Positions 24,784-32,257 of a stretch of DNA of 40,457 nucleotides are shown piece after piece. Positions within the stretch are counted from its first letter, which is position 1; every line of letters begins with the position of its first letter. The notes below the pieces were generated by a model. That model was not told the origin of the DNA. It made no database searches and saw only the letters and a list, made by a program, of their open reading frames with translations. This DNA comes from Terriglobales bacterium (GTDB lineage Bacteria; Acidobacteriota; Terriglobia; Terriglobales; Acidobacteriaceae). Made by a program: the position numbers and the translations under genes. The DNA lies in NCBI GenBank assembly GCA_025927855.1, contig JAICKN010000005.1:1-40457 (forward strand), written 5' to 3'.

Positions 24784-26850
24784 ATGGTAATTGCAGCGGG
24801 GGAAAAAGGGGAGGGAGATGGAGTCTCGCGCGATCCTCTGAGCGCAGCTCCTTCAAATTACGGGCCGGAGCCTTGGCGTTTGATCAAGAACCTGAAGATT
24901 GAGTCGCAGACGCTGCAAGGGCGAGTGCTTTCCGGTAGCTTTGTGCTGCTGGCCGGATCGTCCCTAGTTACTCTGCTCAACTTTGCCTACAACATCGCGG
25001 TGGCGCAGTTTCTGGGACCGAGCGGGTTCGGGCATGCCACCGCTGTCTATACGCTGCTGGTTTTAATTTCCGCAGTCACGCTTTCCTTCCAGATCACATC
25101 CGCCAAACTGGTCGCGCAGCAGGAAACGCCGCAGGCAAAAAGCGCGGCATATAGAAGCTTTCAGAGAAGCGCATGGGGATGCGGCGTGTTGGCGGCGCTT
25201 CTCTTGCTGTTGTTCCGCAATGGGATCACCGCATATTTAAGGCTGCCCGGCCCCATTCTTGTGGATTTGCTGGCCATAGGCGCAGCCTTTTATGTGCCAC
25301 TGGGAAGCCGGCGCGGTTATTTGCAAGGCGTCTGCAACTTCCGAGGTCTGGCAATCAACCTGGTGCTGGAAGGATTTGTCCGGCTCTGCGGATCGCTGCT
25401 GCTGATTTTTCTGGGACTCGGCGTCACCGGCGTGATTGCCGCAAATGCGGCGGCGGTAGCTGTCGCATATTTTTCAGCGGTGTTCAGCGCTCCAATGCTC
25501 GCGCCCTCGAAGCTGCGGATTCGCGTGGCCTTCCGCGAAGGGTTGCAATCCATCGTTTTCTTTGTGGGCCAGGTGGTCATCAACAATTGCGACATTATTT
25601 TGGTCAAACATTTCTTTCCCTCGCAATTGGCCGGACTTTATGCGGCGGTGGCGCTGGTGGGGCGCGTCATATTTTCTCTTTCCTGGGCAGTCGTCAACAC
25701 GATGTTCCCGATTGTCGCGGGGGCGCGCAGCCATGAGCGCAAGGGACACCGCATTCTGGGGCTATCTCTGCTATTAGTTTTTGCCATTGGCTCAATTCTG
25801 ACCCTGGCTTTGTATCTCTCTCCACCTTCGCTCTGGGCCATCGTTTTCGGCTCACGCTTTGAAATGGCCGGCACATACACATTGTCATCTTTGCTTTCGC
25901 TCTATGCGGCAAGTACTACGATCTATTCATTGAGCGTAGTGACGATTGCCTACGAAATGTCCTACAAGATTGCGAATACAGGATGGACGCAACTGGCGTT
26001 CAGCGGCGCGCTGATTGTGGGCATATATGCCTTTCACTCATCGCTGCGCCAGGTCATCCTGGTGCAAGTGATCATGATGGCCTGCCTGCTGATAGTAGTG
26101 GCGGTGCCTTTTCTTCTTGCCACATTGAAGCAATCCCAGGAAATAACGACACATTCCTCCTATACGGGCCTTACCGTGCTGCGCCGCGTTCCAGAAGATG
26201 AAGTGATTGCAGAGTTCCTAAAAACCGATTTTCATCACCCTGAATTCGCCAGTTATCAGAAAACCCTGGCGAAGCTTGTTCAAACGCCCGATTTCAGCAA
26301 TGCCCTGGAGAATTCAACCCGGCGCGCGCTCTTCCGTTTACGGCATGGAGGCCTGTGGAGAGAGTTGCCACAGGACACGGAATGGTCCGAGGTGACGATT
26401 GGAGACCTTGACCTCAATCAAGTGCGGGTATTTCCCAGAGCGCAGTGGCGAAAAATAGCAAGCGGCGATTTCGCGGTTCCGAAAATTGTGCAATCCATCG
26501 CGAAAACCCGGAGCAGAGGCGCTGTTGACGATAAATTTATCGCCAAAATCGCGGATTTGCACAATCATATTTCCCTGCATGGGCCGGATGGCGCCGTGTT
26601 GCTGATTGGCCTGAACTATTCCGGGCCGTTCACAATCCTCGATGGCAACCACCGCATGGTGGCTTCGACGCTCATTTCACCGCAGGCAGTTTCCAATTTA
26701 CGGGTGTTCTGCGGAATTTCTCCGCGCATGATGGAATGCTGCTGGTACCAAACTAACTTCTCCACGCTCTTGCGCTACGGAACAAACTTGCTAAGGCATG
26801 CGGTCCGCGATCCTGCCGAAGAACTCGACCGGCTGTTGCAAAGCTCATAA
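24784..26850 (+). CDS. Polysaccharide flippase (MATE/Wzx-like) fused to a DGNHR (ParB/Srx-like) domain
   Basis: A 688-residue protein in two parts. Residues about 45-450 are a 12-14-helix polysaccharide-biosynthesis exporter, with LQGRVLSGSFVLLAGSSLVTLLNFAYNIAVAQFLGPSGFG at the front (two stretches), the usual entry to the Wzx/MATE-like family that flips lipid-linked sugars. Residues about 455-688 are soluble. They contain VTIGDLDLNQVRVFPRAQW and the motif ILDGNHRMVAS (Asp620-Arg624), which resembles the DG-x-HR motif of ParB/sulfiredoxin-fold domains, and then a C-terminus with paired cysteines (MECCWYQ). The ParB/Srx assignment is inference from the motif and preceding strand pattern. The ATG at 24784 is used. 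The first 40 residues are not membrane-like. No glycosyltransferases lie beside it, which is unusual for Wzx. Confidence 0.85.
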   Translation: MVIAAGEKGEGDGVSRDPLSAAPSNYGPEPWRLIKNLKIESQTLQGRVLSGSFVLLAGSSLVTLLNFAYNIAVAQFLGPSGFGHATAVYTLLVLISAVTLSFQITSAKLVAQQETPQAKSAAYRSFQRSAWGCGVLAALLLLLFRNGITAYLRLPGPILVDLLAIGAAFYVPLGSRRGYLQGVCNFRGLAINLVLEGFVRLCGSLLLIFLGLGVTGVIAANAAAVAVAYFSAVFSAPMLAPSKLRIRVAFREGLQSIVFFVGQVVINNCDIILVKHFFPSQLAGLYAAVALVGRVIFSLSWAVVNTMFPIVAGARSHERKGHRILGLSLLLVFAIGSILTLALYLSPPSLWAIVFGSRFEMAGTYTLSSLLSLYAASTTIYSLSVVTIAYEMSYKIANTGWTQLAFSGALIVGIYAFHSSLRQVILVQVIMMACLLIVVAVPFLLATLKQSQEITTHSSYTGLTVLRRVPEDEVIAEFLKTDFHHPEFASYQKTLAKLVQTPDFSNALENSTRRALFRLRHGGLWRELPQDTEWSEVTIGDLDLNQVRVFPRAQWRKIASGDFAVPKIVQSIAKTRSRGAVDDKFIAKIADLHNHISLHGPDGAVLLIGLNYSGPFTILDGNHRMVASTLISPQAVSNLRVFCGISPRMMECCWYQTNFSTLLRYGTNLLRHAVRDPAEELDRLLQSS

Positions 26851-27522: not shown

Positions 27523-28899
27523 TCATTCTCCGCCGACGGTGAGGCCATCAATGCGGATGGTAGGGCAGGCGGCGGAGCTGCGGAATTCAAGATCGTTGCC
27601 GATTTCAGAAATATTGGCAAAGATATCCTTCAAATTTCCAGCGACGGTGATTTCTTCTACCGGATAAGCAAGTTCGCCGCCGGAAATCCACACGCCAGAA
27701 GCGCCACGCGAGTAATCGCCCGTCACGAGATTCGCGCCATGGCCAAGAAATTCCGTGACATAGAGCCCGTCCTGAATTCCGGCAATGATCTGCTGCGGAG
27801 TTTTCCTGCCCGGCTGCAAAAAGTAATTCCCAATACCGATACCGGGAGTTCCAGCCAGACCGCGCGCAGCGTTGGCGGTAGTTTGCAAGCCAAGTTTCTT
27901 GGCAGTGTAGGTGTTAAGCAAATATGACTTCAGCACGCCGTTCTCGACCACTAGAGTGCGGCGCGTGGGGATGCCTTCTCCGTCGAAGGGGCTGCTGCCA
28001 AAACCACCGGGCATGGTTCCATCGTCAACGATAGTCACTCCTTCGGCGGCAATTTTTTCTCCCAGCTTGCCCGCCAAAAATGAAGCGCCGCGGTAAACCG
28101 CATCGCCGTTCACGCCTTCGAAAATATGCTCGATAATGGAAACAGCCACAAGAGGATCGAACACTACCGGCACATGCGCGGTTTTCACCTTGCGAGCTCC
28201 CAGGCGGCGCAGAGTGCGCTGGGCGGCGATTTTGCCGACCTGCTCAGGATTTTCCAGCTTGCTCAAGCTGAGCGCGGAAGAAAACCAGTAATCGCGCTGC
28301 ATGGCGCCATCTTCGGTTTGCGCAATGGGAACTGCGGCAACGGAACAATGCGAACGGCGGTATTCACCGACGAATCCGTGCGAGTTGGCGAGAACTTTGT
28401 GGCCGGTAGCGGCATCGAAAGAGCCGCCATCGGAATTTTTAATGCGCGCATCGTAATCGAGCGCGGCTTTTTCGGCCCGTCTCGCATAGTTAATGCGGTC
28501 TTCATTGGGAAGCGAATAGACATCCGGGTAATACAAGCCCAACTCGGCCGGGATTGCCCCTAGTTGATCGGGTTCAGGAATACCGGCAAAAGGGTCTTCC
28601 GAAGTAATCCGCGAAAGATCCAGGGCAGATTGCACCATTCGATCCAGGCCATCGCGGGAAAAGTCGCTGGAGTAGGTGCTGGCGCCGCGCTGGCCATTGA
28701 ACACGCGCACGCCAATGGCCTTCGACCCTGATTCTTTGAGTTGCTCGACTTGTCCCAGACGTACGAGAGTAGAGAATTCATCGCCTTCACGAATAACGCA
28801 CTCGGCGGCGGTTGCGCCGCCCTTCATGGCCCGGTGGACAATGTCCTGAGCCAGGGATTTAAGGTCAGTTGCCGGTTTTTTTTCGAGAGCTATAGCCAT
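27523..28899 (-). CDS. pmbA: TldE/PmbA-like metalloprotease partner subunit
   Basis: A 458-residue member of the TldD/PmbA family. Recognisable stretches are ESGSKAIGVRVFNGQRGASTYSSDF (residues near 58-82), VPVVFDPLVAVSIIEHIFEGVNGDAVYRG, DDGTMPGGFGSSPFDGEGIPTRRTLVVENG and GASGVWISGGELAYPVEEITVAGNL. The HExxxH zinc motif of TldD is absent, as expected for the TldE subunit, which forms a heterodimer with TldD. The family degrades unfolded peptides and, in E. coli, matures microcin B17 and takes part in CcdA turnover. tldD lies upstream on the same strand, 160 bp away across a dispersed repeat. Normal length; start at ATG 28899. Confidence 0.93.
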   Translation of the reverse strand: MAIALEKKPATDLKSLAQDIVHRAMKGGATAAECVIREGDEFSTLVRLGQVEQLKESGSKAIGVRVFNGQRGASTYSSDFSRDGLDRMVQSALDLSRITSEDPFAGIPEPDQLGAIPAELGLYYPDVYSLPNEDRINYARRAEKAALDYDARIKNSDGGSFDAATGHKVLANSHGFVGEYRRSHCSVAAVPIAQTEDGAMQRDYWFSSALSLSKLENPEQVGKIAAQRTLRRLGARKVKTAHVPVVFDPLVAVSIIEHIFEGVNGDAVYRGASFLAGKLGEKIAAEGVTIVDDGTMPGGFGSSPFDGEGIPTRRTLVVENGVLKSYLLNTYTAKKLGLQTTANAARGLAGTPGIGIGNYFLQPGRKTPQQIIAGIQDGLYVTEFLGHGANLVTGDYSRGASGVWISGGELAYPVEEITVAGNLKDIFANISEIGNDLEFRSSAACPTIRIDGLTVGGE

Positions 28900-28974
28900 G
28901 CGTTATTCGTTCCAAGCATTCTACGTGGTGAGCAACTGCCAAATCGCCGCTCTTCAATGCTATCCCTAAGTAAA

Positions 28975-29035
28975 GCAGGTTCCTCGACTGTGAAGATCAT
29001 TCGCAAACGAATAATCTTCTTCGCTCGGAATGACA
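28975..29035 (-). repeat. Dispersed REP-like element, copy 3 (diverged)
   Basis: Read on the minus strand it begins GTCATTCCGAGCGAAG and ends CAGTCGAGGAACCTGC, matching the conserved ends of the elements at 10459-10520 and 15966-16022 with several changes. Its core forms a clear hairpin (GAAGAT..ATTCG with CGAAT..ATCTTC around a short loop). It lies between tldD and tldE, inside what would be a two-gene unit. Confidence 0.62.
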
Positions 29036-29059
29036 ATGTTAGTAGTTCTGCATTGATTG

Positions 29060-30517
29060 CTATTGCATGAACCCGCCGGGATCTTTTCTCGCAGTCCCGC
29101 CCACCGTGAGCCGGTCAATTTTAATGGTCGGAATGCCTACACCCACCGGCACGGCCTGCCCATCTTTGCCGCAGGTGCCAACGCCTTCGTCCAGCTTGAG
29201 ATCGTTGCCCACCATGGAAACGCGCGTGAGCACATCCGGGCCGTTGCCGATTAAAGTTGCGCCTTTAATGGGAGCGGTCACTTTGCCATCTTCAATCATG
29301 TAGGCTTCCGAAGCCGAGAAGACAAATTTTCCGTTCGTAATATCAACCTGCCCGCCGCCAAAATTTACGGCATAGATGCCGTGCTTTACGGATCGAATAA
29401 TGTCCTCGGGACTTTCCTCGCCGGCCAGCATGTAAGTGTTGGTCATGCGCGGCATGGGAATGTGCTCATAACTTTCCCGGCGGCCATTGCCGGTATCGGC
29501 CATGCCCATGAGCTTTGCGGAAAGCTTGTCGCTCAAATAACCCTTTAGAATTCCATTTTCAATCAATACGGTTTCCTGCGTGGAGTGGCCTTCGTCATCC
29601 ACATTCAAGGAGCCGCGCCGCCACGGCATTGTGCCGTTATCCACCACTGTGCACTTTTCACTGGCCACGCGCTTGCCGATAAGGCCGGCAAAAGCTGAGG
29701 TTTGTTTGCGGTTGAAATCGGCTTCCAGGCCGTGACCTACAGCTTCATGCAGCAGCACGCCGGGCCAGCCGGGGCCGAGCACAACTTCCATTTCGCCTGC
29801 CGGAGCTTCCCGCGCGTCGAGTTGCAGAATGGCCTGCCGCGCGGCCTCACGAGCGAAGTACTCCGGCGTTTTTTCGCCGAAGAAAAAGTCCAGCGCAACC
29901 CGGCCGCCGCCACCGGAGCTGCCCCGGCCGGAACTTCCCTCCGCTTTGGCGATGGCGGAAACATTCATGCGCGCCAGCGGCTGGGAATCTTCCGCAAAGG
30001 TGCCGTCGGACCCAACAACGAGGATGTGCCGTAACTCGTCTGCATAGTTGGCGCGGACTTCTTTGATTCGCGGATCATAACTTCGCGCCGCGCTATCACC
30101 GCGCATGAGCAATTCGACTTTTGCCGTCAGTTCCGCATCCACCGAAGGAAGCGGCACCGGGTACAAGCTGCGGGCGGGCTTTTGTTGAAACCCCGCAACC
30201 GTGGCCTTGGCCGGGCCGCTCGCGATCAGGGCCGCCGTCCGGGCCGCATGCAAAATCCGCTCCGGGGAAAGATCGTCCGTGTAGGCATAGCCGGTGCGCT
30301 CGCCGGAGAGGACGCGAACTCCACATCCGGCGGAAATCCCCTGCGAAGCCGTTTTCACCATGGACTCGTCGAGACTAAGCGACGTGGACGAAAGATATTC
30401 AAAATAAAGGTCGGCGTAGTCGCCTCCGGCGGAAAGGGCCGCTGCCAGATAGCGTTCGAGATCGTGCTGGGTCAGGCCATAATGCTGAAAAAAGAATTTA
30501 TTCTGTTCCACGGTCAT
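29060..30517 (-). CDS. tldD: TldD metalloprotease catalytic subunit
   Basis: A 485-residue protein from ATG 30517, chosen because it aligns with the start of known TldD proteins. The frame is open 37 codons further upstream. The zinc motif HEAVGHGLEADF is present (His257, Glu258, His262), followed by FNRKQTSAFAGLIGKRVASEKC and VVDNGTMPWRRGSLNVDDEGHSTQ. The C-terminus includes MPRMTNTYMLAGEESPEDII and FGGGQVDITNGKFVFSASEAYMIEDGK, all typical of the family. With TldE it forms a cytoplasmic peptidase that degrades short unfolded peptides and can process RiPP precursors. A Gly/Ser-rich loop near residues 215-225 is longer than usual. The divergent neighbour gene's first in-frame ATG lies only 4 bp away. 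Confidence 0.94.
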   Translation of the reverse strand: MTVEQNKFFFQHYGLTQHDLERYLAAALSAGGDYADLYFEYLSSTSLSLDESMVKTASQGISAGCGVRVLSGERTGYAYTDDLSPERILHAARTAALIASGPAKATVAGFQQKPARSLYPVPLPSVDAELTAKVELLMRGDSAARSYDPRIKEVRANYADELRHILVVGSDGTFAEDSQPLARMNVSAIAKAEGSSGRGSSGGGGRVALDFFFGEKTPEYFAREAARQAILQLDAREAPAGEMEVVLGPGWPGVLLHEAVGHGLEADFNRKQTSAFAGLIGKRVASEKCTVVDNGTMPWRRGSLNVDDEGHSTQETVLIENGILKGYLSDKLSAKLMGMADTGNGRRESYEHIPMPRMTNTYMLAGEESPEDIIRSVKHGIYAVNFGGGQVDITNGKFVFSASEAYMIEDGKVTAPIKGATLIGNGPDVLTRVSMVGNDLKLDEGVGTCGKDGQAVPVGVGIPTIKIDRLTVGGTARKDPGGFMQ

Positions 30518-30520
30518 TGG

Positions 30521-32257
30521 ATGTATGGCAAGCCGGGAAGGACTCCGGACTGTTTCATTATCCCACATCATCTTCGCCGTTCCGCGTGGCCAACGCTGGA
30601 TTTTGCCAGAATCGGGCACAGCCTCCAATGTTCATTCGTCACAGACGGCAGCGGGCGCGTGGTGTGCAATCCTGCCGTGACTCCAGACCAGCTATCCCAG
30701 ACTATTGAAGGCTTTCTCGCCGGCTCTAGGGAAGCCGTGATTACGGAAAATGGCGAGCTGGTTTTTGATCTCTCTGAATCCCGCTATTCAATTTCAGGCG
30801 AGCATCACAAATGCTTGCTGCACGTGTGGTCAGCGGAGCGGAATGTCGTCCGGCGCGTGCTTGACATGGAAATTAAACGAGACGTGCTCCGTTTCCAGGT
30901 GCAACGCCTGGGACAAACCAAGCCCGGCAAACTTGAGATTTGCCGCCGGAGGGACGCACGCACTCCCACGGCGAAGCGGATTACCCGCGTGGCTTATCGA
31001 AATAAATTAGAACGTTTGCTGGAGAGACGTTTCCCCGGATTCAAAGTCACTGATCTCGTGACCACGCCGGACCTTGAACGGTCATTTGGTCCCGTCTATA
31101 CGCGCGGCCTTTTGCAGCGAGGGCAAACAGCATTCGCCGTGCTGGGAGTAAATGCGGAAGAAACTGCGGCGTCCGTACAGGCTGCTCTGACATTCGGAAT
31201 CCTATGGCTCGACTTATGCAGGCAAGCCCATTCCGGAAAGCTCGTGGTGGAGGGGCTCAAACTTATTGCCCCTCGGGGCACATCGGCAATTCTCCGCGAG
31301 CGCATGGGGCGGTTGAACCACGCCGCTGCCAAGTGGCAGCTATATGAATTCGACGAGCAGGAAGACACCATCACGGAACTCGATGTGAGCGATAGCGGAA
31401 ATGTCTCCACACGCCTGGTTCATTGGACGGATCCGGCAGTGACTTATACGCGCTTCGCAAGCCAGATCGCCGAAGTGCGGCAGCTTATGCCGGAAGCCGA
31501 GGCGGTCGCGCTCTCGCCTGTAGAAATGGTCTTCCGGCATCGTGGACTGGAATTTGCCCGTGGCAGGCTGGCCCTGCGCATAGATTCATTTCGTGCTTCC
31601 GGCGAAATCGTATTCGGCCTCCCCCCGGCGGAACGTGTGCTGGATGAGCGGAACTATCCTGCGTTCGTGCAATTGGTGCGAAGCATTGGGGAAGCACGCC
31701 ATGCAGAGGGGCCAAAAGATAATTTGCTGTGGCGCATTCATCCGGAACGGTGGCTGGAGTCGCTGGTGTTGCGGGATGTGAGCGCTCTGGATGAGCAGTT
31801 GGATTGCGCGTTCAATTATTCCCAGGTGCCGGCGTTCTCTTCCTCGGCGCGGGCCATCATGGATGTGCTTGCTGCTACCCGGCAGGGACGCCTTGCCGTT
31901 ATCGAACTTAAAGCGGATGAGGACATTCACTTGCCGATGCAGGGCCTGGATTATTGGTCACGCGTGGCCTGGCACCATGCGCGGGAGGAATTCAAGAACT
32001 ACGGATACTTCGCGGGCCGTGAATTAACCAACGAATTGCCCTTGCTGATGCTGGTCGCTCCCGCCCTGCGCATACATCCTGCGACGGACACGCTGTTGCG
32101 CTATCTTTCTCCCGCCATTGACTGGGTATTCACCGGGATTGGCGAACAATGGCGGGAAGAGATCAAGGTGATTTTCCGCAAGCGCTCGAAAAAATCTTCG
32201 ACAAAATCAGAAACGCGCGGCCCGGAAACTTTGGAAGAGTTTGCCAAGCCCGCGTGA
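30521..32257 (+). CDS. Unrecognised protein with PD-(D/E)XK nuclease-like motif
   Basis: A 578-residue protein if it starts at ATG 30521. The frame extends further upstream, but that part is antisense to tldD. GTG codons at 30659 and 30662 are alternative starts leaving a normal-size divergent promoter region. Near the C-terminus the sequence IMDVLAATRQGRLAVIELKADED has the layout of a PD-(D/E)XK nuclease core: Asp448, then Glu462-x-Lys464 on the next strand, followed by a helix (MQGLDYWSRVAWH) like the conserved one in this superfamily. The N-terminal 400 residues are not recognised. They contain charged, mixed alpha/beta sequence without membrane segments. It is not accompanied by a methylase or helicase, so a restriction system is not supported. 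DNA repair or another nuclease role is possible. Confidence 0.82.
   Translation: MYGKPGRTPDCFIIPHHLRRSAWPTLDFARIGHSLQCSFVTDGSGRVVCNPAVTPDQLSQTIEGFLAGSREAVITENGELVFDLSESRYSISGEHHKCLLHVWSAERNVVRRVLDMEIKRDVLRFQVQRLGQTKPGKLEICRRRDARTPTAKRITRVAYRNKLERLLERRFPGFKVTDLVTTPDLERSFGPVYTRGLLQRGQTAFAVLGVNAEETAASVQAALTFGILWLDLCRQAHSGKLVVEGLKLIAPRGTSAILRERMGRLNHAAAKWQLYEFDEQEDTITELDVSDSGNVSTRLVHWTDPAVTYTRFASQIAEVRQLMPEAEAVALSPVEMVFRHRGLEFARGRLALRIDSFRASGEIVFGLPPAERVLDERNYPAFVQLVRSIGEARHAEGPKDNLLWRIHPERWLESLVLRDVSALDEQLDCAFNYSQVPAFSSSARAIMDVLAATRQGRLAVIELKADEDIHLPMQGLDYWSRVAWHHAREEFKNYGYFAGRELTNELPLLMLVAPALRIHPATDTLLRYLSPAIDWVFTGIGEQWREEIKVIFRKRSKKSSTKSETRGPETLEEFAKPA

Follow-up and report, generated by a model that had tools for sequence, protein, structure and literature searches.

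Background

The regulation of Wzx-type flippases and their coupling to synthesis are, to our knowledge, an open question, and we know of no ordinary Wzx protein that carries a C-terminal domain of the kind reported here. MviN is a MurJ flippase. In mycobacteria, its C-terminal pseudokinase domain recruits FhaA (PMC12599244).

Members of the ParB fold bind CTP, ATP or GTP, or serve as enzymes (SerK and sulfiredoxin, Srx) or scaffolds (PMC12704722, PMC5120207). Nucleotide phosphates are bound in this fold by the GxxR of the P-motif, and mutation of the P-motif arginine abolishes NTP binding (PMC12704722). In a published screen of 28 purified ParB-fold proteins, NTP binding was not seen for 17 (PMC12704722). 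A 2025 survey of the ParB-CTPase fold, which used PF02195, listed DNA/RNA-related and enzymatic domains, CBS domains and others as fusion partners and named no transporter (PMC12704722).

In the present study, we analysed a stretch of 40,457 nucleotides (the window) from a Terriglobales bacterium of the family Acidobacteriaceae (contig JAICKN010000005.1 of assembly GCA_025927855.1). The window contains a gene in which a flippase is followed by a C-terminal domain (CTD) with a predicted ParB/sulfiredoxin-like fold. As this domain is fused to, or co-translated with, the flippase, our findings suggest that a nucleotide or small cytoplasmic ligand controls the sugar-lipid flippase of slime-polysaccharide export in soil Acidobacteria.

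Results

Gene architecture and flippase part

The frame starts with ATG and is free of stops up to its end (Table 1). An earlier note on this DNA had described a 688-residue fusion of an exporter membrane part and a soluble domain of about 230 residues, with ILDGNHRMVAS at about residues 618-628; both statements were borne out, the second to the exact residue. The sole Pfam match of the frame was PF01943 (Polysacc_synt) at residues 49-311, with E = 7e-7 and a score of 29.4 bits, above the cut-off of 28.2. The full-length AF2 model from 73 sequences (pLDDT 88.9, pTM 0.77) has 12 membrane helices within residues 44-457, in keeping with the 12-14 helices of the MOP fold, then a linker only a few residues long and, from residue 464 on, a domain that mixes alpha and beta elements. 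Foldseek matched the membrane part to MATE transporters (E = 5e-8), WzxE (TMt up to 0.76) and MurJ. The loops predicted to be inside carry more positive charge, and both ends of the membrane part are predicted to be cytoplasmic. From the 12 helices and the positive-inside loops, we infer that the CTD sits in the cytoplasm.

Table 1. Positions of the gene and its parts in the window
Feature	Position	Strand	Basis
Whole gene, flippase-CTD fusion, 688 aa	24784..26850	+	ORF translation, fused homologues
Membrane part, about residues 44-457: MOP-superfamily (Wzx-type) flippase, 12 predicted helices	24913..26154	+	PF01943, AF2, Foldseek, loop charges
Soluble CTD, residues 459-688: predicted ParB/sulfiredoxin-like fold, no curated family	26158..26847	+	AF2, Foldseek
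FPRAQW (550-555); F, P, R and W invariant	26431..26448	+	Alignment, model secondary structure
ILDGNHRMVAS (618-628), P-motif-like [DE]GNHR = GxxR (D620 G621 N622 H623 R624)	26635..26667	+	80-row alignment
DGNHR, residues 620-624	26641-26655	+	
C643-G-x-S-x-x-M-x-x-CCWY (643-655), invariant Cys and Trp past the fold core	26710..26748	+	Alignment

Recurrence of the fusion

A draw of 396 genomes from the phylum gave six further genomes of the same family with the fused frame (668-723 aa). Among named genomes, 80 related loci were detected, and a frame with DGNHR was resolved in 79 of them (all except L078); 74 of these frames are uncut fusions of at least 654 aa, and five are cut by contig ends. 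All of the loci are labelled Acidobacteria except one from a Rhodanobacteraceae-labelled MAG, the sequence of which groups inside the Acidobacteriaceae rows. The 74 uncut fusions come from genomes of the Acidobacteriaceae type. A match at L008 (genome G101; E = 8e-5), within a heptosyltransferase-like frame, was rejected as spurious.

The concern that a sequencing error (a lost stop) near position 26150 or an assembly artefact had joined two genes could appeal to the relatives with split forms and to the position of the window copy outside the usual cluster. However, intact fused frames recur in many assemblies, including the non-MAG genomes of KBS 83, KBS 89, AB60 and Acidipila rosea, and the split homologues keep both parts adjacent. 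An artefact is therefore rejected, its likelihood being negligible, and 24784-26850 is a single intact gene that has lost no stop.

Conservation of the C-terminal domain

The 230 residues of the CTD gave no family match in Pfam, NCBIfam or PHROGs, and no match to viral contigs and phage. In 80 aligned rows, the invariant positions are E471, F478, R513, W525, P529, W534, FPR.W (550-555), K588, G609, DGNHR (620-624), C643, S646, M649, CCW (652-654), L662 and Y665; an alignment of 56 sequences has 27 invariant columns. The identity of DGNHR in all 80 rows is beyond chance, since the domain as a whole shares no more than 44-55% identity with that of the window in many rows. The split forms have EGNHR in its place, and distant standalone relatives have EGHLR or DGHIR. 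The [DE]G..R pattern is kept throughout the relatives, with the arginine invariant even in distant ones; the Cys pair is not kept, its first Cys being mostly Ser or Val in the split clade.

Fold of the C-terminal domain

The domain had been read earlier as ParB/sulfiredoxin-like, and this reading stands in part. The AF2 model of the CTD from seven sequences (pLDDT 87.2, pTM 0.83) had Noc, ParB, KorB, Spo0J or Srx as all of its top 21 Foldseek neighbours in the PDB, at weak values (E = 0.08-1.2, TM at most 0.56), and SbnI at rank 34 (E = 2.0). In a viral structure library, ParB/Srx proteins ranked first (E = 0.013). The GxxR of the Box II P-motif, G621-N-H-R624, lies between a strand (E158-162) and a helix (H164-173) of the domain model. 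FPRAQW appears, by our reading of the topology, to precede a helix where ParB has its QPR stretch.

On the other hand, a link to PF02195 was not seen: the family gave no match to the window frame at E<=1 and none to 19 members at E<=10. The alignment of the CTD with genuine ParB N-domains by hhalign was not significant (probability 2.8%, E = 0.016) and had the expected register, KIADLHNHISLHGPDGAVLLIGL..GPFTILDGNHRMVAS against AMEEMAASIRASGVLQPILVRPL..GDFQLVAGERRWRAA, with the GxxR of the CTD in line with GERR of ParB. Eight unrelated cluster families all scored below ParB against the CTD, and one of the eight equalled the score of the CTD against ParB. Sequence-profile matches of the CTD in the PDB (capsid, UL13 and toxin-antitoxin proteins) were taken as chance. 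The catalytic Cys of sulfiredoxin lies within the motif FGGCHR; [DE]GNHR has Asn at the Cys position in all rows. Because the hits are consistent, the order is alpha-beta-beta-GxxR-helix and the hhalign register agrees, we favour the view that the CTD is a divergent member of the ParB/Srx fold, with no single statistic strong enough for proof. A canonical ParB (PF02195) was not found in the window genome or in G432 of the same genus, both about 90% complete; 16 of 21 relatives have one.

Split and standalone relatives

The CTD was found in 121 of 300 genomes of the family, often as short frames of 236-391 aa. In most of 20 neighbourhoods, a CTD gene of about 235-270 aa comes immediately after a flippase gene of about 430-490 aa; the CTD gene is longer where the gene caller had picked an upstream start. 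The flippase and CTD genes are thus each other's neighbours where they are split, a point that the earlier note had left to be checked; the usual overlap is of the ATGA type (4 nt; L113, L114, L119, L121, L122 and L126), within the exopolysaccharide (EPS) cluster. A quick tree of 97 CTDs places all split rows together on the same side of a single branch (SH-aLRT 86); one fusion or fission event separates the fused and split forms. The adjacent split genes and the fusion make a Rosetta-stone pair.

Two further copies (L118:9061-10080 and L130:9087-10061) have the CTD behind one apparent N-terminal membrane helix, with no flippase. They are convergent with a gene for an EPSP-synthase-like protein (the family being read from sequence) and a carboxypeptidase-regulatory-like protein, and their genomes also hold a fused copy. 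A distant relative with DGHIR (L128:1296-2336; E = 1.5e-23) comes from another acidobacterial family and adjoins a 1441-aa protein with DUF7619. Among the genomes outside Acidobacteriota, which were undersampled, distant standalone relatives of 202 aa with EGHLR were found on plasmids of Streptomycetaceae. Soluble actinobacterial relatives lie at L090:10028-10609 (Kitasatospora) and L089:7995-8600; the former adjoins genes for an RNA polymerase sigma factor and a zf-HC2 protein.

Exopolysaccharide cluster and genomic context

In the relatives, the flippase gene lies within a conserved EPS cluster, the genes of which encode a TPR protein, a PTPS-related multi-TM protein, P377, an Ig-like protein, P170, GT2, a GH99-like protein, the flippase, a STAS protein, P172 and a dTMP-kinase-like protein; many clusters also have GT4, nucleotidyltransferase-like and TPR2 genes. 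The TPR export protein (1400 aa in its full form) has PgaA/PrsT-like repeats by NCBIfam, and the GT2 is PgfS/ArnC-like (E = 6.5e-73 and 3e-45, under the cut-off). Set against a Wzx/Wzy-type EPS system, which would have a flippase, glycosyltransferases, a polymerase and an outer-membrane exporter in one cluster, GT2, GT4, the PTPS-related protein and the TPR exporter-like protein are present; a Wzy or Wzz was not recognised. In 42 loci, and in most of the split ones, the flippase or CTD has a STAS gene nearby. Of the 300 family genomes, 118 hold both the CTD and the PTPS-related gene; the CTD is present alone in 3, the PTPS-related gene alone in 10 and neither in 169; co-occurrence is thus 118 of the 131 genomes that hold either, and, as the genomes are related, a Fisher value for it is not a probability. 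Man, Glc, Gal and Xyl make up the heteropolysaccharide EPSs of Granulicella (PMC5259719); a link between these EPSs and the flippase-CTD cluster has not been made.

In the window genome, the cluster is scattered over at least three contigs. The flippase gene is alone on C216 (the window); C13 (L136) has the PTPS-related, P377, Ig-like, P170, GH99-like and GT4 genes, and C133 (L137) the nucleotidyltransferase-like, STAS, P172 and dTMP-kinase-like genes. It had been noted that no glycosyltransferase lies beside the gene, and from this it was supposed that the substrate could be something other than an O-antigen unit. The former is true in the window, but the relatives have glycosyltransferases in the EPS cluster around the gene; a substrate unrelated to polysaccharide is not supported, given this cluster and the partner genes that the window genome keeps on C13 and C133. 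The blocks of the window genome differ in their nearest clade, the PTPS-related and GT4 genes being closest to clusters of the Sulfotelmatobacter type and the flippase and dTMP-kinase-like genes to the L009-L015 types.

Downstream of the gene in the window, adjacent homologues of PmbA and TldD (a metalloprotease pair) lie on the minus strand (27523-30628), an order kept in G432, G084 and G210. A 691-aa frame (30182-32257), with no Pfam family at the cut-off and a relative at L025, overlaps TldD on the opposite strand with its first part; its true start is probably far downstream. In G432, the flippase gene adjoins the TPR and PTPS-related genes (L129), and no flippase was found in the 4 kb beyond DUF2393 of its TldD-PmbA-DUF2393 genes. 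Because the G432 flippase is in the cluster and absent from this site, the window gene was most likely relocated in the lineage of the window genome; a chimeric window contig is a less likely alternative.

Discussion

We start from the architecture, conservation, split and fused relation and EPS-cluster linkage as observed, and from a cytoplasmic placement and a CTD fold that are supported by models. The gene product would be a Wzx/MOP-type flippase of a conserved acidobacterial EPS export system, its cargo being suggested by the neighbouring genes. The CTD would be a cytoplasmic ParB/sulfiredoxin-like module that takes up a nucleotide or nucleotide-derived ligand in a putative [DE]GNHR (GxxR) pocket. 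Binding of the ligand, and possibly its hydrolysis, might gate the flippase or hold it with the cytoplasmic enzymes of synthesis, so that flipping of the lipid-linked sugar would await precursors or a signal. The shared evolution of the two parts, fused or as overlapping or adjacent genes, the cytoplasmic position and the invariant P-motif all argue for a module that acts on the flippase from the cytoplasm. We give an even chance to this reading, in which a cytoplasmic domain that binds a nucleotide or other ligand gates an EPS flippase or ties it to synthesis; the gating, the ligand and the exact cargo are its inferred parts. The two standalone copies that keep an apparent single membrane helix (L118 and L130) speak for this reading; the weak Foldseek and hhalign scores and the large share of ParB-fold proteins without NTP binding (17 of 28; PMC12704722) speak against it, and the invariant Cys, Trp and Lys, with W525 and W534, would also suit an enzyme. 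A narrower version, in which the CTD is a new ParB/Srx-fold branch and switches a flippase of lipid-linked sugars in response to an NTP (CTP, ATP or a nucleotide-sugar), is tentative and rather unlikely. If true, a MOP flippase would for the first time be known to be gated directly by a nucleotide, and a ParB-type switch would for the first time be seen in membrane transport.

The CTD might instead be an enzyme, a SerK-like phosphotransferase or another transferase, that works on the cytoplasmic face just before flipping and alters the lipid-linked sugar or a small head group there; the fusion would then channel the substrate. The 27 invariant columns include many polar and aromatic residues, the ParB/Srx fold takes in the SerK kinase (PMC5120207) and the phosphotransferase sulfiredoxin, and CTD copies exist without a flippase beside them (L118, L130, L128 and the soluble actinobacterial ones). 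The kinase-like gene next door in the cluster can be read both ways, as a sign of phosphorylation chemistry at the locus or as a P-loop kinase that could already supply it. However, SerK was unmatched by sequence, SbnI came only at the low Foldseek rank given above, and no acceptor substrate is suggested, so we consider an enzyme unlikely. Alternatively, the CTD might no longer bind nucleotides and might serve, without catalysis, as a scaffold between the flippase and glycosyltransferases or the STAS protein. Such a scaffold would have a precedent in MviN, where the C-terminal pseudoenzyme of a MOP flippase recruits a regulator (PMC12599244), and the frequent STAS gene would fit it. The strict conservation of the P-motif GxxR and of K588 would be unusual for a dead pocket, and we regard a scaffold as improbable. 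Ligand-dependent gating or coupling is favoured over both, because the P-motif arginine is needed for NTP binding in the ParB fold.

We found no publication on a flippase-ParB/Srx fusion in the open-access literature. The CTD, a conserved and probably cytoplasmic domain in which a candidate pocket for nucleotides can be named, is fused to the flippase in one clade and co-translated with it in a sister clade. It offers a tractable handle on flippase control, and the CTD would add a membrane-transporter context to the ParB/Srx fold. Acidobacteria are among the most abundant groups of soil bacteria, and the flippase-CTD marks a conserved, uncharacterised EPS cluster in those of soil.

Among known systems, the ParB-CTPase/sulfiredoxin fold (PF02195; ParB, Noc, KorB, Srx, SerK and DndB) appears to resemble the CTD in model topology, weak Foldseek neighbours and GxxR register. 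Unlike the known members, the CTD is detected neither by PF02195 nor by any other Pfam family, has no HTH or DNA-binding domain, is fused to a membrane part, and bears additional helices at its N-terminus and a helical extension with Cys at its C-terminus. A hypothetical protein of Streptantibioticus/Kitasatospora (WP_331742262.1) aligns over nearly the whole CTD (22-23% identity, pairwise E = 6e-8), but these relatives are soluble, carry EGHLR where the fusion has DGNHR, end without the helical extension that bears CCWY and lie outside polysaccharide clusters. Mycobacterial MviN (MurJ) likewise joins a MOP flippase to a C-terminal domain that has a nucleotide-binding fold and a role in regulating envelope synthesis (PMC12599244), whereas the fold of this domain is unrelated to that of the CTD and MviN serves peptidoglycan rather than EPS. 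The Wzx/PST flippases of the MOP superfamily (WzxE, MurJ; PF01943) share the 12-helix N-terminal part and, in the relatives, the setting in a polysaccharide cluster, and the fusion protein differs from an ordinary Wzx by its additional cytoplasmic CTD of 230 residues. There is nothing unusual in the flippase part; what is new to the literature and databases searched is the fused domain and its association with the flippase.
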